A stretch of DNA of 20,546 nucleotides, from the IMG/VR virus record IMGVR_UViG_3300044641_004013, positions 1 to 20,546 of that record; one strand, given 5' to 3'. This stretch comes from a virus. The translations under genes and the position numbers were made by a program. This document shows, piece by piece, positions 2,039 to 19,850 of this stretch. Every line of letters begins with the position of its first letter. Within the stretch, counting starts at the first letter, position 1. Under the pieces are notes generated by a model, which was not told where the DNA came from, searched no databases, and saw nothing but the letters and a program-made list of their open reading frames with translations.

Positions 2039-2201
2039 CAGCAAAGAATATAGCCAATATGATGCTACCCATGAGCAAATTGGCAAAGAAATGGGTAAAA
2101 GCCGTGCTTATGTCTCTTTAATTGAGAAAGAAGCACTGGAAAAACTACGGAAAAAGTTGCTGTGGAAGCATAATGTTGCCTCCGTGGATGATTTGCTTTG
2201 A
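2025..2201 (+). CDS. Sigma-70 region-4-like helix-turn-helix mini protein
   Basis: The chosen start is the ATG at 2025, which has AAGGAG six bases upstream; in-frame ATGs at 1980 and 2019 are less well placed. The 58 residues contain a helix-turn-helix, THEQIGKEMGKSRAYVSLIE, followed by KEALEKLRKKL. This has the layout of sigma factor region 4.2, which binds the -35 element. No other sigma regions are present. It could redirect host RNA polymerase or act as a small activator, or simply be an HTH protein of other descent. A second region-4-like gene lies at 7731-8102 on the other strand. Confidence 0.55.
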   Translation: MEENNSKEYSQYDATHEQIGKEMGKSRAYVSLIEKEALEKLRKKLLWKHNVASVDDLL

Positions 2202-2488
2202 TTTACAGGAATAAAAAACTACTTGAACTTATTAGACAATCCCCGTGTCAAAGCTGTGGTCGATCTGACGGCACAGTTGTGGCAGCTCACTCCAACCAGC
2301 TTAGAGATGGAAAGGGTAGAGGTATCAAAGCGCATGACTATCGAGTTGCAGCGCTCTGCTATTCCTGCCATATGAACATCGATCAGGGAAAGTCCCTAGA
2401 TAGAGCAGAAAGAGTGGAAATCTGGGAAGAAGCTCATCGAAAAACTATCGCCTGGCTATTTGAAAATAATCACATAGAACTACGCTAG
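2198..2488 (+). CDS. DUF1364/Ref-like HNH-type nuclease
   Basis: The protein has 96 residues. The only available start is a TTG at 2198 that overlaps the previous stop (TTGA), since a stop codon lies two codons upstream. Two Cys pairs (C17/C20 and C54/C57) surround a His (H31) and a His-Asp (H46-D47), with CHMNID at 57-62. This metal-ribbon HNH-like arrangement, with the GKGRGIKAHD motif, matches the DUF1364 family of lambdoid phage recombination nucleases related to P1 Ref. A role in cleaving recombination intermediates is inferred from the family. It is the last gene of the first plus-strand block. Confidence 0.65.
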   Translation: MIYRNKKLLELIRQSPCQSCGRSDGTVVAAHSNQLRDGKGRGIKAHDYRVAALCYSCHMNIDQGKSLDRAERVEIWEEAHRKTIAWLFENNHIELR

Positions 2489-2499
2489 AACACTACCTA

Positions 2500-2529
2500 T
2501 TGTTATTTTTTTAAATTTTATGGTATATT
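2500..2529 (+). promoter_or_regulatory. Candidate sigma70 promoter of the small RNA
   Basis: TTGTTA at 2500-2505 and TATATT at 2524-2529 are spaced by 18 bases. They lie in AT-rich DNA directly after the last gene of the block and just before a chain of hairpins ending in a terminator. The match to TTGACA is four of six; the -10 is five of six. The predicted start is about 2536. No experimental support is visible. Confidence 0.45.
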
Positions 2530-2535
2530 TAGTTG

Positions 2536-2650
2536 TCAGCTCACACTCTGACTCGCACATTCTATCTCCTAGCAGAGACTTGTGCAACGCAAGCCCTCGG
2601 ATCAACGATCCACGAACCCCAGCCTAAAAAACTGGGGTTCTTCTTTTTGT
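2536..2650 (+). ncRNA. Candidate small RNA with serial hairpins
   Basis: Between a promoter-like sequence and an intrinsic terminator lie about 110 non-coding bases with consecutive short inverted repeats: GTCAG/CTGAC (2535-2552), TCTC/GAGA (2565-2578), CTTG/CAAG (2579-2593), GGATC/GATCC (2599-2611) and the terminator stem. The second loop region carries CTCCTAGCAG (2566-2575), which is the exact complement of the ribosome-site element found before several minus-strand genes. This is inference from sequence; it matches no RNA family that I recognise. Confidence 0.45.
2614..2649 (+). terminator. Rho-independent terminator
   Basis: A perfect 9-bp stem, GAACCCCAG (2614-2622) and CTGGGGTTC (2632-2640), encloses a 9-base A-rich loop and is followed by TTCTTTTTG. 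This is the strongest terminator in the window. It would end the first plus-strand block and the candidate small RNA. Confidence 0.85.
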
Positions 2651-2652
2651 GC

Positions 2653-2679
2653 TTGCAAATCTTTTTTTTCTGATGTAAT
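2653..2679 (+). promoter_or_regulatory. Candidate extended -10 promoter
   Basis: TGATGTAAT at 2671-2679 matches an extended -10 element (TG, one base, then TGTAAT). TTGCAA at 2653-2658 is a poor -35 at a short 15-base spacing. Its position, between the terminator and a second structured region, suggests that it starts the transcript leading into the gene at 2975. Support is by pattern only. Confidence 0.35.
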
Positions 2680-2682
2680 CTA

Positions 2683-2945
2683 CTTGGGCTAGGAGGTAGA
2701 ACGTGTAGACAAACGATTAATTTCGTCTGTCTGCGCCTCTATCTCCCAAGCTACACCATACAGGTCGGACATAACAGCAGCTATATGGGAAGATGCCTTA
2801 CTGTGGGATTAGATTTGAAACAGGGCAATGGATGGCGAAGAAAGAATCCATGATCGAAAGTCTTTCGGGTGCAGTGGCTCCAAAAAGCAACTGTTGAAGG
2901 CAACCTAGGAGAGGCTAGGTGCGTTCACCAAAAAGCAACTGTCGA
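2683..2945 (+). ncRNA. Structured leader or non-coding RNA of unknown family
   Basis: About 260 non-coding bases have strong secondary structure. A long hairpin runs from 2683 to 2750: CTTGGG/CCCAAG, then AGGTAGA/TCTATCT with one G-U pair, then GTAGACAAACGA/TCGTCTGTCTGC with one wobble and one mismatch, and a 6-base loop. Further stems are ATGGAT/ATCCAT (2828-2851), CGAAAG/CTTTCG (2855-2867) and ACCTAG/CTAGGT (2903-2920). No group I or II intron core, tRNA, tmRNA or RNase P signature is recognised. Confidence 0.5.
2880..2944 (+). repeat. Direct repeat CCAAAAAGCAACTGTyG
   Basis: CCAAAAAGCAACTGTTG at 2880-2896 and CCAAAAAGCAACTGTCG at 2928-2944 differ at one of 17 positions and start 48 bases apart. 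They flank the ACCTAG/CTAGGT hairpin. Both are non-coding. They could be paired RNA loops or binding sites. Confidence 0.75.
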
Positions 2946-2974
2946 TAAGAGTGACTTTTATTATTAGTGAGTGT

Positions 2975-3406
2975 ATGAGTGCATATAAGCCGTTTAGTCA
3001 AGTAACCCACGATGAGTGTGATCCTCCTGCCAGGGATGCGGTAATCCGCTTCCATGCCACAAGAGGTCGAATTGCCAAGCCCCATCCTGATAAATACATG
3101 GTGGATTTGGTGATTGAAAATGAATTCATGGTTGCTGTTGGGTATTGTGAGATTGAGATGCGTGACTGGAACGATGTTCCACAGCAATATCAAACAATCC
3201 ACGTTCCAAGCCGTAAAAAGAAGTTAGTTGATAACGACCTACCAACTACCTACTTTGTGGTCTCCAAGAATCTTAAAAAGGCTTGGTGGTGCAATACCAA
3301 AGACATTCTGGAATCTCCACTGGTGGAAGTTCCGAATATAGAAGTAAAAGAAGGTGAGTATTTTTATGATGTTCCAAAAAAGAAGTTTAAAGAAGTAATC
3401 TTATAA
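2975..3406 (+). CDS. Hypothetical protein, possible PD-(D/E)XK-type nuclease
   Basis: The protein has 143 residues from ATG 2975; an in-frame GTG at 2951 would add eight residues, and neither has a clear ribosome site. Residues 38-65 show PDKYMVDLVIEN, then YCEIEMRDW, then IHVPSRKKK. An Asp (D44) ends one strand and Glu-x-Glu (E59, E61) lies in the next, which is the usual layout of PD-(D/E)XK nucleases, although the Lys is replaced. The C-terminal part is beta rich with two Trp (KKAWWCNTKD). It is the first gene after the structured RNA region. Nuclease function is an inference; it may be an inactive relative. Confidence 0.5.
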   Translation: MSAYKPFSQVTHDECDPPARDAVIRFHATRGRIAKPHPDKYMVDLVIENEFMVAVGYCEIEMRDWNDVPQQYQTIHVPSRKKKLVDNDLPTTYFVVSKNLKKAWWCNTKDILESPLVEVPNIEVKEGEYFYDVPKKKFKEVIL

Positions 3407-3424: not shown

Positions 3425-4291
3425 GTGAAAACATTAAATTTATTAAACATACGGATTGACGGTGGCACACAAGCTCGTCTTCAATTAAACCAAGAGGTAG
3501 TCGCAGAGTATGCAGAGAAGATGCGTGATGGTGAAGTGTTCCCACCAGTCACAGTCTACTTTGACGGCTCTGAGTATTGGCTCGCAGATGGTTTCCATCG
3601 TTACTTTGCTACCAAAGCCAATGCCAAGGCATCGATTGATGCTGATGTAGAAAACGGCACACAGCAGGAAGCTAAGAAGTATTCATGGAAAGCCAACTCA
3701 AGACGTGGTTTGCGTTTGAACCATGATGATTTCAGAAACATCATCCTTGCCATGTTAAGCGATGAAGAAACAAAAACATGGTCAAACAGGCAGATAGCAG
3801 AATGGGTTGGAGTTTCCCACAGCACTGTCAATCGTATTAAATCGTCACTGGAACAGTCTTCCAGTGATACCACGGAAAAGAAATACATCAACAAGCACGG
3901 CAAAGAATCAGTCATGAAAACTGAGAAGATTGGTAAAACAGTCCAAAAAATCCCTGCTCCTGATATGACTTCTGCGTTAATGGTCAAGCAAGAAGTAGTG
4001 CTTGAACTCAACGAAAAGATTGATGAACTGTCCCAAACCATCAATATGTTGGCTGATGAGAACACCCTGATGCGTGACAAGATTGCCATTGGTCAATGGG
4101 ATGCCTCAGAAATTGAGAAGATTGATGCAGAAGAAACCATCAAAGACTTGCGTGAACAGCTCCGTGTGCTTGATTTAGACAACAAAGCTCTTCGCCAAAG
4201 CCGAGATATGTTCCAAAACAGAAACTCTGAGCTGATGAAAACAGTCAAATCTTTGCAATCAAAATTAAAAAAGCTAGATCAGGGTAACTAA
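3425..4291 (+). CDS. ParB/Srx-fold DNA-binding protein with helix-turn-helix and coiled coil
   Basis: The protein has 288 residues from a GTG start; GAAAGG lies about 11 bases upstream, so the ribosome site is weak. Residues ~5-95 form a ParB N-terminal (Srx-like) domain: IRIDGGTQARLQLNQEVV, EVFPPVTVYFDG, and the phosphate-binding-like LADGFHRYFA box. Residues ~115-145 hold a helix-turn-helix (NRQIAEWVGVSHSTVNRIKS). Residues ~190-288 are a Glu/Lys/Leu coiled coil. Chromosomal ParB has GERRxRA and ENLQR boxes, which are absent, so this is a phage or regulator-type branch. It could act in partition, transcription or replication. The gene contains one copy of an inverted repeat shared with the small terminase gene. 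Confidence 0.75.
   Translation: MKTLNLLNIRIDGGTQARLQLNQEVVAEYAEKMRDGEVFPPVTVYFDGSEYWLADGFHRYFATKANAKASIDADVENGTQQEAKKYSWKANSRRGLRLNHDDFRNIILAMLSDEETKTWSNRQIAEWVGVSHSTVNRIKSSLEQSSSDTTEKKYINKHGKESVMKTEKIGKTVQKIPAPDMTSALMVKQEVVLELNEKIDELSQTINMLADENTLMRDKIAIGQWDASEIEKIDAEETIKDLREQLRVLDLDNKALRQSRDMFQNRNSELMKTVKSLQSKLKKLDQGN
3845..3867. repeat. Inverted repeat TCACTGGAA-N5-TTCCAGTGA, copy 1
   Basis: Perfect 9-bp arms at 3845-3853 and 3859-3867 surround a 5-base centre, inside the ParB-like gene (coding Ser-Leu-Glu-Gln-Ser-Ser). The same arms occur in the small terminase gene at 14921-14944 in another reading frame, so the match is at DNA level. Confidence 0.8.
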
Positions 4292-4335: not shown

Positions 4336-5814
4336 ATGGAATTAGAGTTGCGAGAGCATCAAGTAGAAGTTATTGATGCGTTAAGAGAAGGATTTAGACA
4401 GGGGCATAGGTCACAGTTGCTGTATGCACCCACAGGATTTGGCAAGACAGAAGTTGCTATTTACCTGATGAAAGCCACTGCCGATAAGTATAAAAGGGCT
4501 GCGATGGTCTTAGACCGAATCGTATTGGTCGATCAAACCAGTATGCGTCTAACCAAATACGGCATAGGTCATGGTGTATTCCAAGCAGACCACTGGAAGT
4601 TTGATAAAAGAAACAGACTTCAGGTATGTTCTGCCCAGACCCTAGAAAAGCGAAGAGACTTCCCTGAAATCGATTTATTGATTGTGGATGAATGTCATAT
4701 CGCTAGGGCACAAACCTCAGAGTTCATCAAGAATAACCCCGATGTCAGAGTCATTGGATTGACTGCCACACCCTTTACCAAAGGACTGGGAGATCTATAT
4801 ACCAATGTAGTTTGTGGTGCTACCACCAGTGATTTAGTCAATAACAAATGGCTGACTCCACTAAAGGTTTATATCGCTAAAGAAATCGATATGACTGGGG
4901 TAAAAAAGGTTGCAGGAGAGTGGGCACAAGACCAAGTTACTGAAAGAGGTATGCAAATCACTGGCGATATCGTGGCTGAATGGGCACAAAAGACCAATGA
5001 GATATTTGGTAAGCCAGTCAAGACGATTGTGTTTTGTGCAGGAGTCGCCCACGGAGCAGACTTGGTAGATCAGTTTGCCAATAAAGGTTATAACTTTGTT
5101 TCAATTTCATATAAGGACAATGATGAGTTTAAAAAAGCTGCCATCGAGGACTTCGCCAAGCCAGATACAAATATACATGGGCTTATCGCTACTGATATTC
5201 TTACTAGGGGCTTCGATGTTTCTGATGTTATGGTTGGGGTATCAGCTCGCCCATTTAGTAAGTCTCTTAGTTCCCATATTCAGCAGATGGGTAGGGTAAT
5301 GAGACCATTTGAGGGCAAAGAGTTTGCTCTCTGGCTAGATCATTCAGGCAATTACCTACGATTCAGAGATGACTGGGATGAAGTCTATGTTAATGGTGTT
5401 AAAGCCCTAGAAGGTAAGGCTGAGAAAGCCAAGAAAGAGCCGACTGAAAAGCTAAAGAAAGAGTCCAAGTGTTCTGCTTGTGGGCATTTATGGCCTCCAA
5501 ACACAGATACTTGCCCATCCTGCGGTCATGTAAGGCAGAGAAGGAATCTTGTTGATCATGTGGCTGGTGAATTAGTTGAGTTGGTGGCAGGCAAGAAAGT
5601 TGCCAAAGACGACAAGCAGATGTTCTATTCAGAGATGCTCTACATAGCACAGCAGAGAAACTATAACCCTAACTGGGCAAGCCATGTCTATCGAGATAAG
5701 TTTGGAGTATGGCCTAGAAATCTAAAAGAAAATGCCATACCCCCATCAATCAACACCATGAAATGGATTACCCACAGGCAGATTAAGTTTGCGAAACGAA
5801 AGGAAACGGCATGA
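4336..5814 (+). CDS. RadD-like superfamily 2 DNA helicase
   Basis: The protein has 492 residues and starts after TTAGGAG. The first RecA-like domain has motif I APTGFGKT (31-38), motif II DECH (118-121) and motif III TATP (143-146). The second has IATDILTRGFDV (~284-295) and motif VI QQMGRVMR (316-323). A Cys4 zinc ribbon follows (C379, C382, C393, C396). The C-terminal ~80 residues carry HVYRDKFGVWPR, a motif I recall from RadD/YejH-type helicases. It would hydrolyse ATP and remodel branched or single-stranded DNA during phage replication. It is preceded by a short hairpin and overlaps the next gene by ATGA. The helicase call is certain; the RadD relationship is likely. Confidence 0.9.
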   Translation: MELELREHQVEVIDALREGFRQGHRSQLLYAPTGFGKTEVAIYLMKATADKYKRAAMVLDRIVLVDQTSMRLTKYGIGHGVFQADHWKFDKRNRLQVCSAQTLEKRRDFPEIDLLIVDECHIARAQTSEFIKNNPDVRVIGLTATPFTKGLGDLYTNVVCGATTSDLVNNKWLTPLKVYIAKEIDMTGVKKVAGEWAQDQVTERGMQITGDIVAEWAQKTNEIFGKPVKTIVFCAGVAHGADLVDQFANKGYNFVSISYKDNDEFKKAAIEDFAKPDTNIHGLIATDILTRGFDVSDVMVGVSARPFSKSLSSHIQQMGRVMRPFEGKEFALWLDHSGNYLRFRDDWDEVYVNGVKALEGKAEKAKKEPTEKLKKESKCSACGHLWPPNTDTCPSCGHVRQRRNLVDHVAGELVELVAGKKVAKDDKQMFYSEMLYIAQQRNYNPNWASHVYRDKFGVWPRNLKENAIPPSINTMKWITHRQIKFAKRKETA

Positions 5815-9634: not shown

Positions 9635-9806
9635 CTTCTTTCTCCAATCGGTCAGCTTCTTCACAAAAAAATTCAGGCATTTCATCTAACTCAATGTTGC
9701 CATCCATGTAGTCTTGCAAAACATACTGTCTTGCTTCCTCTGCATTGTTGGCATCAACAGATACCCGATACTGGTTTAATGTAATCAACACCTGATATTT
9801 AGGCAT
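9627..9806 (-). CDS. DpnD/PcfM-like small protein, paralogue C
   Basis: The start is ATG 9806 in an ATGCCTAA junction, after CAGGAGAAAGAAG; the longer frame from 9863 is rejected. The 59 residues are MPKYQVLITLNQYRVSVDAN, NAEEARQYVLQDYMDGNIEL and a tail with PEFFCEEADRLEKEDA. It shares its C-terminal box with paralogue B and its start with paralogue A. The strand, strand, helix, acidic-tail layout fits the DpnD/PcfM-like type. The DNA before the start (AGGAGAAAGAAG) is also nearly the same as for paralogue B, showing duplication of the whole unit including its ribosome site. Confidence 0.65.
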   Translation of the reverse strand: MPKYQVLITLNQYRVSVDANNAEEARQYVLQDYMDGNIELDEMPEFFCEEADRLEKEDA

Positions 9807-10377
9807 CTTCTTTCTCCTGTTCTTCCCAGTCTGCATAAGACTCGGAAATAGCCATCTCTTCATCTATGTCCTTGGGGATATTTTCTTGAATCCATTCCAC
9901 TGGTGAACCCTTATCAGGAAAATCGAGGGAATAACCTTCGTCTATTCCATCTTCCCATTTGCCACAGAAAGCACAACCACCTTCAAAGTAATAGGCTCGG
10001 ATGGAATAACCCATCTCAACCAATGTGACATAAGCATCCAAAGGAGGACTCCAAGCAGACTGGAAATTCACAAACATAGCGTTATCCTCATTTAATTCTG
10101 CTTTATCCTGATAGCTTTCCCATCCGATATCCCACTTCGTTCCCCAGTTTTGTATCCGCCAGTCCCACCATGCCGTTTCGGGATCGACAAACTCAGGTTT
10201 TGGTGTGCCAGTTATATGACTGGAATCAAAAGTCGGCTTGACCTTGACTGTCTTGTAATCAGGCTCAGGCACAAGGGTAGATAAGAATTTCTTCTCATTC
10301 CAAGCATTAAGGGCTTTCTCCATCATGTTCTTATCAGGATGAGAGATAAACAGGTTGTTGTCGCACCAATTAGGCAT
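9799..10377 (-). CDS. YubB/Api92-like protein with ferredoxin-like domain
   Basis: The protein has 192 residues. It starts MPNWCDNNLFISHPD, the hallmark of the DUF1281/YubB-type family common on plasmids and phages. Typical later boxes are visible: AWWDWRIQNWGTKWD (about 69-83), FQSAWSPPLDAYVTL and GYSIRAYYFEGGCAFCGKWE. The family is predicted to have a ferredoxin-like alpha/beta fold without iron, and its function is unresolved. The TAGGAG site is strong. It sits between paralogous small proteins with ATGCCTAA junctions on both sides and ends Glu-Asp-Ala. Family assignment is confident; role is unknown. Confidence 0.75.
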   Translation of the reverse strand: MPNWCDNNLFISHPDKNMMEKALNAWNEKKFLSTLVPEPDYKTVKVKPTFDSSHITGTPKPEFVDPETAWWDWRIQNWGTKWDIGWESYQDKAELNEDNAMFVNFQSAWSPPLDAYVTLVEMGYSIRAYYFEGGCAFCGKWEDGIDEGYSLDFPDKGSPVEWIQENIPKDIDEEMAISESYADWEEQEKEDA

Positions 10378-10606
10378 TTGTTTCTCCTAGCAGATTGTTA
10401 GTAATGCGGTTAAAAAACTCTTTGTCGATTGAATCTTTGATTCTCATCTCTGTTGTTTGAGCATCAGCCAAAATACTGTCGTCAGCCTGAACTCCCTCAA
10501 AGTGTTTGACTTCAGCAAGGTGTAAGGCTTCTTCACTGCTCTTGGCTTCTACTTCATACTCGTAAACCCAATACTGGGTTTCATTCACTTGCACTGTATA
10601 TTTCAA
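10370..10606 (-). CDS. DpnD/PcfM-like small protein, paralogue D
   Basis: The start is a TTG at 10606 with TAGGAG six bases upstream, overlapping the previous stop (TTGA). The 78 residues begin MKYTVQVNETQYWVYEYEVE, then AKSSEEALHLAEVKHFEG, which is the clearest DpnD/PcfM-like pattern here: a strand ending in x-V-E-A-K-S-x-E-E-A before the helix. A longer C-terminal helix (IKDSIDKEFFNRITNNLL) is extra. It ends Thr-Asn-Ala in the ATGCCTAA junction with the YubB-like gene. DNA-modification or conjugation operons carry such proteins, but their role is not known. Confidence 0.65.
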   Translation of the reverse strand: MKYTVQVNETQYWVYEYEVEAKSSEEALHLAEVKHFEGVQADDSILADAQTTEMRIKDSIDKEFFNRITNNLLGETNA

Positions 10607-10734
10607 GATAATCTCCTAGCAATTTCATCTTCAATCGCAAACATGAGGATTGTGTCTTTTACCCCCATGCTTGCACCCTTTACTTCTTTCAACATAACCC
10701 TTAACTGGGTTAGAGTTTTGCTCTGTAAATCCAT
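10603..10734 (-). CDS. Small helical protein, 43 residues
   Basis: The start chosen is ATG 10734, with CTGCTAGGAG ending six bases upstream; an ATG at 10740 is too close to the site. The 43 residues are MDLQSKTLTQLRVMLKEVKG, a helix followed by a short turn and an amphipathic helix (KDTILMFAIEDEIARRLS). It ends by TTGA overlap with paralogue D. The perfect SD element, the overlap and the helix-forming composition support a real gene. No family is recognised, and a role as leader peptide for the next gene is possible. Confidence 0.55.
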   Translation of the reverse strand: MDLQSKTLTQLRVMLKEVKGASMGVKDTILMFAIEDEIARRLS

Positions 10735-10773
10735 AACCATCTCCTAGCAGAGTTAAATGATTACCAAAATGGC

Positions 10774-12253: not shown

Positions 12254-12439
12254 TTAAGTTAAGTTCGATACTGATACACCATAATCAGCACATACTTTGA
12301 TAAAAAAGTCTTCATTCTTCAATGCACCAGTCATAGCGAGACCGATTTCCCTAGCGGTGCGATAGGGCATCCCATTTTGCAATTGAACCCTAGCGATGGC
12401 TTTCGGCACTGGCTTTGAGTTGATATACCACTGAATCAT
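12254..12439 (-). CDS. Small hypothetical protein, 61 residues
   Basis: ATG 12439 lies behind CTGCTAGGAG and an A-rich spacer. The 61 residues start MIQWYINSKPVPKAIARVQL, with a middle GMPYRTAREIGLAMTGALKN that could be a small DNA-binding or helical hairpin, and end in FFIKVCADYGVSVSNLT. No family is recognised. The strong SD element is identical to those before three other genes here and, reversed, is present in the candidate small RNA at 2536-2650. This makes it a possible target of that RNA. Confidence 0.55.
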   Translation of the reverse strand: MIQWYINSKPVPKAIARVQLQNGMPYRTAREIGLAMTGALKNEDFFIKVCADYGVSVSNLT

Positions 12440-12464
12440 TTTTGAATCTCCTAGCAGTTTGTCA

Positions 12465-13625: not shown

Positions 13626-13772
13626 TTAGATGGCTAACAGGATTAAGTAGATGGCACGACCAACCGAGCAGTTATCGCACTCAGTCAATCTCCAAAAGGT
13701 GTAGCGAATACCACAATGCTTAATGCAGTCATGGATATCCAATGGTGATACTAGGGATGGTAGAAAATTCAT
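13626..13772 (-). CDS. First gene of minus operon, 48-residue Cys-containing peptide
   Basis: ATG 13772 follows TTAGGAG at seven bases, within CTGTTAGGAG. The 48 residues are MNFLPSLVSPLDIHDCIKHC, GIRYTFWRLTECDNCS, then VGRAIYLILLAI. Four Cys and a His (C16-x3-C20, C32-x2-C35) could bind a metal, and the end is hydrophobic. It is the promoter-proximal gene of the minus block, so it would be made first after infection if this block is early. No family is recognised. Confidence 0.5.
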   Translation of the reverse strand: MNFLPSLVSPLDIHDCIKHCGIRYTFWRLTECDNCSVGRAIYLILLAI

Positions 13773-13817
13773 TATTAAACTCCTAACAGGTGGTTAATTT
13801 GTAAGTCATCAGGTGAG

Positions 13818-15684: not shown

Positions 15685-15919
15685 GGTAACGACTGTGACT
15701 CCAGCGCAAAAAGAAATCTTTTTGGTGATTGACTCGTTCTGGAAAAAGCACGGGTTTGGTCCATCGATTGACGACATTATGTATTTGACTGGCGAGCGTA
15801 GTCGGGGCAATGTCTGCCGCAAAATGTGGCGATTGGTTGCCTTGGGTATGTGCAGCGGGATCAAAGGGGTTCCAAGGTCTATTCGTCCTAAGTACATTCG
15901 GGCGCATCACATTGAGTAA
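15671..15919 (+). CDS. LexA-type winged-helix DNA-binding protein
   Basis: The start is taken at ATG 15671 (MGRHKVTTVTPAQKEIF), although the ribosome site is weak; a frame open from 15638 is less likely. The 82 residues match the LexA N-terminal domain: TPAQKEIFLVIDSFWKKHGF, GPSIDDIMYLTGERSRGNV as the helix-turn-helix, then a wing ending SIRPKYI. The LexA peptidase domain is absent, so it cannot self-cleave. It may regulate late genes or repress SOS-type promoters. It overlaps the large terminase start by 8 nt. Confidence 0.65.
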   Translation: MGRHKVTTVTPAQKEIFLVIDSFWKKHGFGPSIDDIMYLTGERSRGNVCRKMWRLVALGMCSGIKGVPRSIRPKYIRAHHIE

Positions 15920-17408
15920 ATTAGAAGAAATCCTAGCCAGCCTTGGAGAAGGTGAACGTGCCAGTATTATGGAGATGGCACAAGCCTATCAGGATTCTCT
16001 GACCAGAGAAAAAGGGCAAGTGTCCTTTATGGAGTTCGTTAAAGTCATGTGGCCTGGATTTATTCACGGCAGGCACCATGCTGTTATGGCTAAAAAATTT
16101 GAGGAGATAGCCAATGGAAAAACTAAACGTCTTATTATTAATATGCCCCCTCGTCATACTAAGTCTGAGTTTGCATCCTATCTGTTACCAGCCTGGTATC
16201 TTGGCAAGTTTCCTCATAAGAAAATTATCCAGTGTTCTAACACAGCCGAACTCGCAGTTGGGTTCGGACGGAAGGTGCGTAACTTAGTAGACGGGGATGT
16301 CTATGGAAAGATCTTTCCGAATGTTGCTTTGCGCCATGACAGTAAGGCTGCTGGTCGATGGGCTACTAACGCTAATGGTGATTATTTTGCTATTGGTGTG
16401 GGCGGTACCGTTACAGGTAAAGGCGCTGATCTGCTCATTATTGACGATCCGCACTCGGAGCAGGAGGCAGCGTTAGCAGCATCTGATCCAACGGTTTACG
16501 ACAAAATCTTTGAATGGTACGGCTCTGGTCCACGCCAGCGTCTACAGCCAGGTGGCTCAATCGTCATCGTTATGACCCGCTGGTCTAAACGAGATCTAAC
16601 GGGCAGAGTCCTTCAGTCCATGGTCGAGCGAGACGGAGACGAATGGGAAGTGATCAATCTTCCAGCGATTCTGCCTTCAGGTAATCCTTTATGGCCTGAG
16701 TTCTGGAGCCTAGATGAATTAGAAAAACTACGCAATGAACTGCCGATTTCTAAATGGTCAGCCCAGTATCAGCAGGACCCCAGCTCAGAAGAAGGCGCCC
16801 TAGTTAAACGAGAATGGTGGCAAATCTGGGACAAAGAAAATCCCCCGCAATGCGATTTTGTTATTCAGTCTTGGGATACCGCCTTCACTAAAAACGAGCG
16901 TTCAGACTACTCAGCGTGTACGACCTGGGGTGTCTTTTATATGAACGAAGATCCAAATGACGCCCACATTATTCTGTTAGACGCTCTCAAAGAAAGGCTA
17001 GAGTTTCCAGAATTAAAGAAGCGAGCCATGGAAATGTACCAAGAATGGGAACCCGATGCGTTCATTGTGGAAGCAAAAGCCTCTGGTGCTCCCCTTATAT
17101 TTGAGCTAAGATCCATGGGTATTCCTGTACAAGAATTTACACCTACCCGTGGTAATGACAAGATCTCCCGTGTAAACTCTGTAGCAGACATGTTTGCATC
17201 AGGAAAAGTATGGGCGCCAAGAAAGCGTTGGGCAGAAGAAGTGATAGAAGAGATGGCAGCATTTCCAAACTCTGACCACGATGACTTGGTTGACTCGTCA
17301 ACACAAGCGCTATTGAGATTTCGTAAGGGAGGATTTATCCGACTCCAAAGCGATGAACCAGATGAGCAACGGTACTTTAAATCTAAACGACCAGTAAGTT
17401 ATTACTAA
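15912..17408 (+). CDS. Terminase large subunit
   Basis: The start is a TTG at 15912 overlapping the LexA-like stop by 8 nt, because LSKLEEILASLGEGERASIM belongs to this family's N terminus. The 498 residues have a Walker A-like MPPRHTKS (78-85), Walker B LLIIDDPH (174-181) and a nuclease domain with SWDTAF (D322), IVEAKASGAP (E387) and SDHDDLVDS (D457/D458), the three metal-binding acids. The protein powers DNA packaging into the prohead through the portal and cuts concatemers. The PPRHTKS loop is a known variant of the phosphate-binding loop. The portal gene follows at 10 nt. Confidence 0.92.
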   Translation: MSKLEEILASLGEGERASIMEMAQAYQDSLTREKGQVSFMEFVKVMWPGFIHGRHHAVMAKKFEEIANGKTKRLIINMPPRHTKSEFASYLLPAWYLGKFPHKKIIQCSNTAELAVGFGRKVRNLVDGDVYGKIFPNVALRHDSKAAGRWATNANGDYFAIGVGGTVTGKGADLLIIDDPHSEQEAALAASDPTVYDKIFEWYGSGPRQRLQPGGSIVIVMTRWSKRDLTGRVLQSMVERDGDEWEVINLPAILPSGNPLWPEFWSLDELEKLRNELPISKWSAQYQQDPSSEEGALVKREWWQIWDKENPPQCDFVIQSWDTAFTKNERSDYSACTTWGVFYMNEDPNDAHIILLDALKERLEFPELKKRAMEMYQEWEPDAFIVEAKASGAPLIFELRSMGIPVQEFTPTRGNDKISRVNSVADMFASGKVWAPRKRWAEEVIEEMAAFPNSDHDDLVDSSTQALLRFRKGGFIRLQSDEPDEQRYFKSKRPVSYY

Positions 17409-17417
17409 GGAAATATT

Positions 17418-19850
17418 ATGGCAATTGATAAAGCACTCTACGAATTACCCCAAGGTCTTGAGGCAGCAGCTGCCGCCATGGAACCTATCGAGATTGAAAT
17501 TGAAGATCCAGAAGCAGTCCGAATTGGGATTGACGGCTTAGAAATTGAGATCAAACCAGAAGAAGAAACTGCCGATGATTTTGATGCCAACCTTGCCGAA
17601 TACATAGACGAAGGGTATTTATCCCAGATGTGCAATGATCTTCTGGGCGATGTAGAGGGTGACGTTAGTTCCCGTAAAGAATGGATGCAGACTTACACCG
17701 ATGGCATTGAGCTATTGGGAATGAAGATTGAAATTCGTTCTGAGCCATGGGAAGGCGCTTGCGGTGTGTATCATCCCCTGCTTTCCGAAGCACTTGTTAA
17801 GTTTCAAGCTGAGACGGTCATGGAAACCTTACCTCCAGCTGGTCCAGTAAAAACCGTGATTGTTGGCAAAGAAACGCCAGAGATTCTGGCTTCTGCTGAT
17901 CGTGTCCAAAAGGACATGAACTACCAAATTACAGAGAAGATGCCAGAGTACCGCCCAGAGCATGAGCGTATGTGTTGGGGTCTAGGTCTTTCAGGTAACG
18001 CCTTTAAGAAGGTTTACTTTGATCCTTCCCTGAACCGCCAAGTAGCTTTGTTTGTGCCAGCCGAAGATCTGATTGTTCCTTATGGCGCATCTGACCTTCA
18101 AAGTGCAGAGCGTGTGACCCACGTTATGCGTAAGACTGAGAACGAACTACGCAAACTGCAGGTTGCAGGATTCTATCGAGACATTGATTTAGGCGAACCT
18201 TCTTCTGCGTTTGATGAAGTAGAAAAGAAGATTGCTGAGAAGATGGGATTCCAAGCAACCTCCGATGATCGCTATAAGCTCTTAGAAATTCAAGTAAACC
18301 TTGATATTGAAGGTTTTGAAGATGAGGATGAAGATGGCGAACCTACTGGCATCGCTCTTCCTTACATTGTTACTGTGGAAAAAGGCAGTCAAAAAGTTTT
18401 AGCCATCCGCAGAAACTGGAGACCTGAAGATGAAACCAAACAAAAACGCAATCACTTCGTGCATTACGGCTACGTTCCTGGCTTTGGCTTTTACTGCTTT
18501 GGCCTCATTCATCTTGTTGGCGCCTTTGCAAAGTCTGGAACGTCTATCATTCGGCAGCTGGTCGATGCTGGAACGCTTTCAAACTTGCCAGGTGGTTTCA
18601 AAGCCCGTGGATTGCGTATCAAAGGCGATGACACCCCAATCAGTCCTGGAGAATTCCGAGACGTTGACGTACCAAGCGGAGTGCTTAAAGATAACATTCT
18701 GCCATTGCCATATAAAGAACCATCACAAGTTCTCTATAGTTTGCTTGGCACAATTGTAGAAGAAGGACGTAGATTCGCCTCTGCTTCAGATATGAAGATT
18801 GCCGATATGTCAGCCAACACGCCCGTTGGTACGACCTTGGCTATTCTAGAGCGTACTCTAAAGGTTATGTCTGCGGTTCAGGCTCGTGTTCACTATTCGA
18901 TGAAACAAGAGCTAAAGCTCTTAAAAGACATTATCCGTGATTACACACCTGACCAGTACAACTACACACCTGACGTTGGCACTCGTTTTGCTAAACAAGA
19001 AGATTACGACAATGTGGACGTCATCCCTGTCAGCGATCCTAATGCCGCTACGATGAGCCAAAAGGTAGTTCAGTATCAAGCCGTTCTGCAGCTTGCCCAG
19101 CAAGCTCCGCAGCTGTACGACTTAGGTCAATTGCACCGCCAGATGTTAGAAGTTCTAGGAATTAAGAACGCTAAGAAGCTGGTTAAGATAGAAGACGACC
19201 AGATGCCAGAAGATCCTGTAACGGAAAACATGAACATCATGAACATGAAACCCGTCAAGGCTTTCCTATATCAAGACCATCAGGCGCACATTCAAGTGCA
19301 TATGAACGCCATGCAAGATCCTAAGCTGGCTCAGTTAATTGGTCAAAACCCACAAGCTCAGGCTATTGCTGCAGCTGCAATGGCGCATATTCAACAGCAC
19401 TTAGCCTTTGAATACCGCAAGCAAATGGAAGATATGATGGGCGTTCCATTGCCTAGTGGCGAAGAGGAAAACGAAGAAGGCATGCCAAGAGATATGGAAG
19501 TACAAATCTCTAGAATGGCTGCACAAGCCTCGGACGCATTGTTAAATCGCAACAAAACCGAAGTGGCTGCACAGCAAGCCCAACAAGCAGCCCAAGATCC
19601 AGTCATTCAAATGCAAGCCAAGGAACTCGAACTCAAACAGCAAGAGGAACAACGGAAAATGCAGAAAGACCAATCTGATGCAGCTGCCAAAGCAGCTCAA
19701 CTTCAGATTGAGAAAGAAAGAATTGCTTCACAAGAGCGTATAGCCCAAGCCAATCTAATGTCCAAACAACAAAAAGATAAGCAAGAGCTAGAACTCAAAG
19801 CAATGCAAGCAGTAGCCAGTGTTAATAAACCTCAAACAGGGAAACGATAG
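17418..19850 (+). CDS. Portal protein, P22-type
   Basis: The protein has 810 residues after TAAGGAAATATT. The N-terminal 75 residues are acidic. The core (~80-560) has SRKEWMQTYTDGIELLG, SEPWEGACGVYHPLLSEALV, GNAFKKVYFDPSLNRQV and the loop GFYCFGLIHLVGAFAKSGTS, which I recognise as the P22-type portal pattern. The C-terminal ~170 residues are Gln/Glu/Lys/Ala rich and helical (EVAAQQAQQAAQDPV, KELELKQQEEQRKMQK), as in the barrel of long portals. Twelve copies form the DNA channel and the terminase dock. It is the next gene after the large terminase, with the next gene starting on its stop codon. Confidence 0.9.
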   Translation: MAIDKALYELPQGLEAAAAAMEPIEIEIEDPEAVRIGIDGLEIEIKPEEETADDFDANLAEYIDEGYLSQMCNDLLGDVEGDVSSRKEWMQTYTDGIELLGMKIEIRSEPWEGACGVYHPLLSEALVKFQAETVMETLPPAGPVKTVIVGKETPEILASADRVQKDMNYQITEKMPEYRPEHERMCWGLGLSGNAFKKVYFDPSLNRQVALFVPAEDLIVPYGASDLQSAERVTHVMRKTENELRKLQVAGFYRDIDLGEPSSAFDEVEKKIAEKMGFQATSDDRYKLLEIQVNLDIEGFEDEDEDGEPTGIALPYIVTVEKGSQKVLAIRRNWRPEDETKQKRNHFVHYGYVPGFGFYCFGLIHLVGAFAKSGTSIIRQLVDAGTLSNLPGGFKARGLRIKGDDTPISPGEFRDVDVPSGVLKDNILPLPYKEPSQVLYSLLGTIVEEGRRFASASDMKIADMSANTPVGTTLAILERTLKVMSAVQARVHYSMKQELKLLKDIIRDYTPDQYNYTPDVGTRFAKQEDYDNVDVIPVSDPNAATMSQKVVQYQAVLQLAQQAPQLYDLGQLHRQMLEVLGIKNAKKLVKIEDDQMPEDPVTENMNIMNMKPVKAFLYQDHQAHIQVHMNAMQDPKLAQLIGQNPQAQAIAAAAMAHIQQHLAFEYRKQMEDMMGVPLPSGEEENEEGMPRDMEVQISRMAAQASDALLNRNKTEVAAQQAQQAAQDPVIQMQAKELELKQQEEQRKMQKDQSDAAAKAAQLQIEKERIASQERIAQANLMSKQQKDKQELELKAMQAVASVNKPQTGKR

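Follow-up and report, generated by a model that had tools for sequence, protein, structure and literature searches.

RNA1 is a conserved putative small RNA (sRNA) encoded in a phage genome, and it contains an exact reverse complement of an extended Shine–Dalgarno (SD) element that precedes several genes of the same phage. We consider it highly likely that RNA1 acts in trans as an anti-SD sRNA and turns down a regulon made up of genes of the same phage. A first-pass annotation of this DNA had proposed a phage RNA with a loop complementary to an element shared among ribosome sites; conservation, together with compensatory change between the loop sequence (hereafter, the seed) and the sites, now lends that proposal strong support.

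The sequence under study, a viral contig from IMG/VR, was analysed over its whole length of 20,546 bases (hereafter, the window). PHROG matches to terminase, portal and other proteins, with an Erf-like annealing protein at the left of the window, indicate a tailed phage (Table 1). The RNA1 stretch occupies the gap between the HNH gene and the gene at 2975, and the minus strand from 8 to 13.8 kb holds a block of about 26 small genes. Between approximately 8100 and 9900 on that strand, short genes with similar acidic tails form a run of small paralogue-like acidic proteins; the junctions among these genes, AGAAGATGCC(TAAAT), are near-identical, and 10-mers are repeated at least four times.

Table 1 Coordinates of RNA elements, candidate target sites and marker genes in the window
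Feature	Position	Strand	Basis or remark
HNH protein gene	2198-2488		PHROG match
RNA1 sigma-70-type promoter, TTGTTA-18-TATATT	2500..2529	+	sequence; kept in relatives
RNA1, conserved small RNA	2536..2650	+	ends approximate, inferred from promoter and terminator
RNA1 5′ hairpin, GTCAG...CTGAC	2535..2552	+	compensatory changes
Seed-displaying hairpin of RNA1	2555..2585	+	predicted fold
Anti-SD seed CTCCTAGCAG	2566..2575	+	near-invariant core CCTAGCAG at 2568-2575
RNA1 intrinsic terminator, GAACCCCAG...CTGGGGTTC and T-rich tail	2614..2650	+	covarying stem
RNA2 promoter, TTGCAA-17-TAATCT	2653..2681	+	kept in CAG-seed relatives
Anti-seed GCTAGGAGGTAGAA at presumed RNA2 5′ end	2688..2701	+	complementary to RNA1
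Rfam RF02932 (Betaproteobacteria-1 RNA) within RNA2	2754..2870	+	91 bits; gathering score 49.4
Regulator-like protein gene	3425-4291	+	weak HTH matches
ResIII-type helicase gene	4336-5814	+	
Candidate target SD CTGCTAGGAG	10384..10393	-	before gene 9799-10377; duplex -26.9 kcal/mol, 0/200 shuffles as good
Candidate target SD TGCTAGGAGAT	10611..10621	-	before gene 10370-10606 (TTG start)
Candidate target SD CTGCTAGGAG	10741..10750	-	gene 10603-10740, start 10734; duplex -33.9 kcal/mol, 0/200 shuffles as good
Candidate target SD CTGCTAGGAG	12448..12457	-	before gene 12254-12439; duplex -28.0 kcal/mol, 0/200 shuffles as good
Weaker possible site CTGTTAGGAG, one G-U pair	13776..13785	-	before gene 13626-13772; sequence
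Terminase small subunit gene	14155		PHROG match
Terminase large subunit gene	15810-17408		PHROG match
Portal gene	17418-19850		PHROG match

The conserved signals at both ends suggest that RNA1 is a stand-alone sRNA, which would be transcribed from its own sigma-70 promoter and end at its intrinsic terminator. Promoters in relatives read TTGACA or TTGACG, then TATATT or TACATT, followed by TAGT. The 5′ hairpin has changed in a compensatory manner: GC has become AU in 9 sequences, and UA has become CG in 12. Across this hairpin and the stem of the terminator, 8 of 15 base pairs have undergone a double change at least once. The terminator loop comprises 9 nt, beyond the 8-nt limit of the automated terminator scan, which therefore missed it; the T-rich tail that follows is compatible with Hfq binding. 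The whole RNA1 stretch has a fold z-score of -3.3, with none of 200 shuffles as stable. The TCTC/GAGA hairpin that was first noted between a promoter-like sequence and a perfect terminator is recovered in the predicted fold, inside a GCACA...TGTGC stem and flanked by TTGTTA-18-TATATT and the 2614–2650 stem. An enclosing helix around the seed is predicted in 37 of 41 homologues despite 28 different stem sequences, and in 37 homologues the mean unpaired probability is 0.64 for the seed versus 0.45 for the entire RNA.

RNA1 is present in approximately 50 related IMG/VR contigs. A search with the helicase yielded 66 related viral loci, about 33 of which have a similar intergenic region, mostly at 70–90% identity, and patterns independent of the helicase recovered additional members. 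Homologues retain the promoter, the loop CCTAGCAG, a CTTGTGCAA-GCAAGC segment and the terminator. With a covariance model, 38 of 67 sources, some of them near-duplicates, yield RNA1 at E < 1e-5, and five divergent sources score more weakly. RNA1 has no Rfam match at the gathering score or at E up to 5. Among genome contigs, the helicase search found no encoded relative, and the RNA1 pattern gave three matches in unrelated contexts and without covariance-model support. MW202481 was the sole match among annotated phages, through the HNH gene upstream of RNA1, with no match to RNA1 itself. Our literature search, with subscription papers largely outside its reach, found no description of RF02932 or of a comparable phage RNA; an earlier description of RNA1 may exist elsewhere. 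Weak pattern matches in L145–L147, L151, L158 and L163 were set aside as unrelated.

Several divergent or displaced copies stand out. RNA1 sits away from the helicase in L022 and L153, which are one contig, and the unit thus moves relative to its neighbours. Copies in L025, L133, L134 and L137 have CACCTCC or CTCCTT in extra loops or linkers, resembling the 16S anti-SD, and each of these RNAs may carry several anti-SD segments. RNA1-like units with CTCCTAGCGG lie at 3182–3290 of L134 and at about 6000–6110 of L136, on contigs without repeated matching SDs; their targets may be beyond the contig ends or in the host.

The RNA1 seed CTCCTAGCAG is the exact reverse complement of the extended SD CTGCTAGGAG, which was seen four times on both strands of the window (three SD sites and RNA1 itself) versus 0.03 expected under a third-order Markov model. 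Beyond RNA1, the element is limited to three minus-strand SD positions (12457–12448, 10750–10741 and 10393–10384). The placement of the complement before minus-strand genes reported in the first-pass annotation is confirmed, with identities of 14, 12, 12 and 11 bases, as is the G-U pairing given for position 13780, where CTGTTAGGAG at 13785 pairs with one G-U. In a comparison with shuffled controls, which the same annotation had proposed, RNA1 pairs better than all 200 shuffled RNA1 sequences with three of the window's four leaders that have an exact target. Duplex energy alone is a poor discriminator, since 11063 also ranked high, probably because of the pyrimidine-rich tail, and 10606 was not among the best. 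The idea that a whole early operon is controlled was too strong, as 4 of the approximately 26 minus-strand genes carry the element. The presumed targets comprise several small genes and a regulator-like gene, which is one of the commonest carriers of an RNA1 site across relatives; gene 9799–10377 has a marginal Api92-like domain match, just under the curated cut-off.

Comparison across phages shows that the seed and its sites change together. The seed is CCTAGCAG in most phages and CCTAGCGG in L062, L029 and L137. Before genes of CAG-seed phages, the diagnostic site base is T in 104 cases and C, A and G in 4 each (TGCTAGG sites), and in the CGG-seed group it is C in 15 and T in 3 (CGCTAGG sites), an association of seed base with site base that is highly significant on the T and C counts (Fisher 2.8e-13). 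Sites in L137 are mixed (3 C, 2 T). The same words distant from starts show no difference between the CAG and CGG groups, which argues against base composition as the cause; L025 has a G+C content of 0.515, close to the 0.513 of L062, yet carries an A seed and T sites. Because related genomes are not independent, the comparison was repeated on clades defined by 85% helicase identity, and seed and site base agreed in every one of them, CAG (13 of 13) as well as CGG (2 of 2; exact p = 0.0095). The CGG seed with multiple sites is represented by two independent clades only, and on the tree the CGG label needs at least two changes. Before the orthologous regulator-like gene (approximately 278 amino acids), the base is T in all 16 CAG genomes and C in all 3 CGG genomes, and a 290-amino-acid gene is preceded by CTGCTAGGAG in L026 and by TCGCTAGGAG in L137. 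L167, found by pattern only, has the longer seed CAGGG, and all five of its gene sites are CCTGCTAGGAG. Relatives that keep the ribosome sites and lose the complementary 10-mer had been named at the outset as the outcome that would speak against the proposal; the opposite was found. These patterns show that seed and sites have co-evolved by compensatory change across related phages, a result obtained from comparative genomics alone.

The repeated element also emerges from a tally made blind to the RNA, in which all 9-mers NNNNNGGAG before start codons were counted without reference to it. The repeated GCTAGGAG-type SD, with TGCTAGGAG or CGCTAGGAG as the repeated word, was confined to RNA1-bearing genomes or to contigs ending before the RNA1 position; other repeated words were few, and none had a related RNA. 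Among genomes of at least 12 kb, site density is 2.0 per 10 kb with RNA1 (n = 33) versus 0.22 without it (n = 37; p = 8e-12). Few sites occur despite RNA1 in L025/L026 and L018, and L031 has a variant seed, TCTAGCGG, with the matching site absent from its 12-kb contig. In the 18-kb L088, an apparent RNA1 lacks the CTCCTAGCGG segment, which its relative L133 has; the blind tally finds no such word repeated there, and two TGCTAGG[AG] words alone precede possible starts. Coincidence or shared descent, with a seed that resembles the ribosomal anti-SD and both partners inherited among related genomes, is an extremely unlikely account of these data. The compared genomes are indeed related, and CTCCT resembles the 16S anti-SD closely enough for some matching to SDs to be expected; against this, related phages without RNA1 are also without the repeated element, seed and sites change jointly when clades are counted as well, and the base that distinguishes the two site types is not part of the SD core.

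Site orientation bears on a different explanation, namely that a phage regulator protein recognises CTGCTAGG as its DNA operator before target genes, at the RNA2 start and within the RNA1 unit, that RNA1 merely holds a copy of it, and that the co-change stems from altered protein specificity. Sites stand in the sense orientation before starts in 125 cases versus 11 reversed, with one preferred spacing, and they therefore appear to act as SDs on mRNA; an operator would hardly be so strictly SD-oriented and SD-spaced. The RNA1 copy, moreover, is always reversed and sits in a loop enclosed by changing stems, and the site is not palindromic. T sites are tolerated alongside the CGG seed (3 of 18, pairing as G-U), whereas the CAG seed is rarely found with C sites (4 of 108, an A-C mismatch), a pattern that RNA pairing would predict, although the numbers are small. 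An operator would nevertheless fit several observations: a site lies right after the RNA2 promoter, some relatives have a site behind TATACT-like hexamers ahead of the regulator gene, that regulator-like gene is among the commonest targets, and the extended consensus AACTGCTAGGAGA exceeds the pairing core in length. The best support for such a DNA- or protein-binding function is the AA before CTG, which is 83–85% conserved and unpaired by RNA1 in most genomes; it may be a chaperone site, an accessibility feature or the mark of another binder. A test of flanking pairing showed no clear own-genome advantage beyond the seed core. Overall, we regard the operator as unlikely and retain RNA1 as an anti-SD regulator.

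Downstream of RNA1, a second unit, RNA2, begins with its own predicted promoter and an anti-seed. RF02932 adjoins RNA1 as part of this separate transcript or leader, and RNA1 lies outside that model. Nearly all CAG-seed relatives retain the promoter with the GCTAGG directly behind it, even with the downstream body replaced. The first-pass annotation had proposed three possible sponges that pair over 8 bases, at 2688, 2905 and 14068. Of these, the one at 2688 alone is supported, being conserved and strongly complementary, and pairing extends further than claimed: GCTAGGAGGTAGAA (2688–2701) can pair with TTCTATCTCCTAGC (2560–2573) over 14 bp with one G-U, and the duplex between RNA1 and the RNA2 start reaches -31.5, compared with -29.6 for the best of 200 shuffled RNA1 sequences. 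The candidate CTAGGAGA at 2905 was rejected, as it lies in a CCTAG/CTAGG hairpin of its own in the conserved RNA. The conserved downstream transcript, starting GCUAGGAG and containing RF02932, may be a target or sponge of RNA1, a weaker step of our scheme, and, given the lack of a clear terminator before gene 2975, RNA2 may also be a long leader of the regulator and helicase genes.

The anti-seed raises the prospect that RNA1 is mainly titrated by mRNAs and RNA2 and that its true targets are host mRNAs. An anti-seed does open RNA2 in the CAG-seed group, with RNA1 pairing stronger than all shuffles, and precedents exist for phage sponges and for phage sRNAs directed at the host (AgvB, PreS; PMC12197685). 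Several gene leaders, each complementary at its SD position, seem beyond what a sponge needs, however, and no anti-seed was found downstream of RNA1 in the CGG phages L062 and L029; the anti-seed is therefore not essential to the system. We judge titration with host targets to be very improbable, and repression of phage genes remains our preferred reading.

RNA2 has features of its own. Window positions 2653–2950 form a conserved structured RNA or long leader in a phage, and conservation reaches well past RF02932 on both sides; a DNA pattern for RF02932, probably too strict, gave no matches over the viral contigs. The RNA2 body is swapped for unrelated conserved sequence in L034, L035, L036, L038, L041, L043 and L018, with the promoter and (AACT)GCTAG start retained, like an exchangeable cassette. 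The divergent clades (L062, L029, L088, L133 and L025/L026) have, just downstream of RNA1 where RNA2 would lie, another noncoding element that is conserved, GGGGCGGGGAA...GATTCCTGCAACGTGGGATTCGGTTGTT...CCCGCCCC.

In the mechanism that we propose, the hairpin loop would present an 8–10-nt anti-SD seed, CUCCUAGCAG, to selected phage genes whose start codons are preceded, at a distance of a few bases, by the matching extended SD (AA)CUGCUAGGAG. Pairing would cover the AGGAG of the SD and block ribosome loading, and a scattered set of phage genes would be turned down together, with a presumed role in the phage cycle. The CUG or CCG preceding the SD would serve as an address that sets these genes apart from other phage and host SDs. 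Translational repression is proposed because of known RNAs that pair with SDs, such as AbcR1/2, NfeR1 and c4.

AbcR1/AbcR2 (alpha-r15) and NfeR1 of Sinorhizobium meliloti are trans-acting sRNAs of approximately 115–120 nt with 8-nt anti-SD motifs, one of them in a hairpin loop, which repress many mRNAs by pairing with ribosome sites (PMC8844928). RNA1 likewise has an anti-SD motif in a hairpin loop, an analogy of layout only: these sRNAs are chromosomal, with generic CUCCUCCC-type motifs directed against host mRNAs, whereas RNA1 is phage-encoded and matches the extended SD of phage genes, and the alpha-r14 and alpha-r15 anti-SD families show no covariance-model match or sequence relation to RNA1. 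The c4 RNA of phages P1 and P7, which has complementary segments in loops, pairs around a ribosome site and blocks phage translation, and in phage P22 the sar RNA base-pairs to a phage mRNA and disturbs translation initiation (PMC12197685). Both c4 and RNA1 are complementary to ribosome sites on phage mRNA, but c4 has one target, the antirepressor mRNA ant, which is not among the presumed targets of RNA1, whereas RNA1 would reach a number of dispersed genes by means of a single recurring tag and has a terminated unit to itself. Similarly, sar is a single-target antisense RNA, whereas RNA1 is separate from all its targets. Reviewed phage regulatory RNAs mostly target single phage mRNAs or host RNAs (PMC12197685). 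RNA1, in contrast, appears to act as one RNA on several ribosome sites that belong to the phage itself.

We see about an even chance that the system forms a lineage-specific address code of extended SDs, in which one sRNA serves a dispersed and exchangeable regulon, genes join by means of the SD tag, CUG drifts to CCG in a compensatory manner and RNA2 titrates the sRNA. The T4 protein RegA represses several phage mRNAs coordinately at their ribosome sites; RNA1, if our reading is true, would be an RNA counterpart of such phage translational repressor proteins. It would also provide an sRNA regulon that is readable from the sequences of many uncultured viruses, and a model, simple enough to be tested, for how sRNA regulons are built and rewired.
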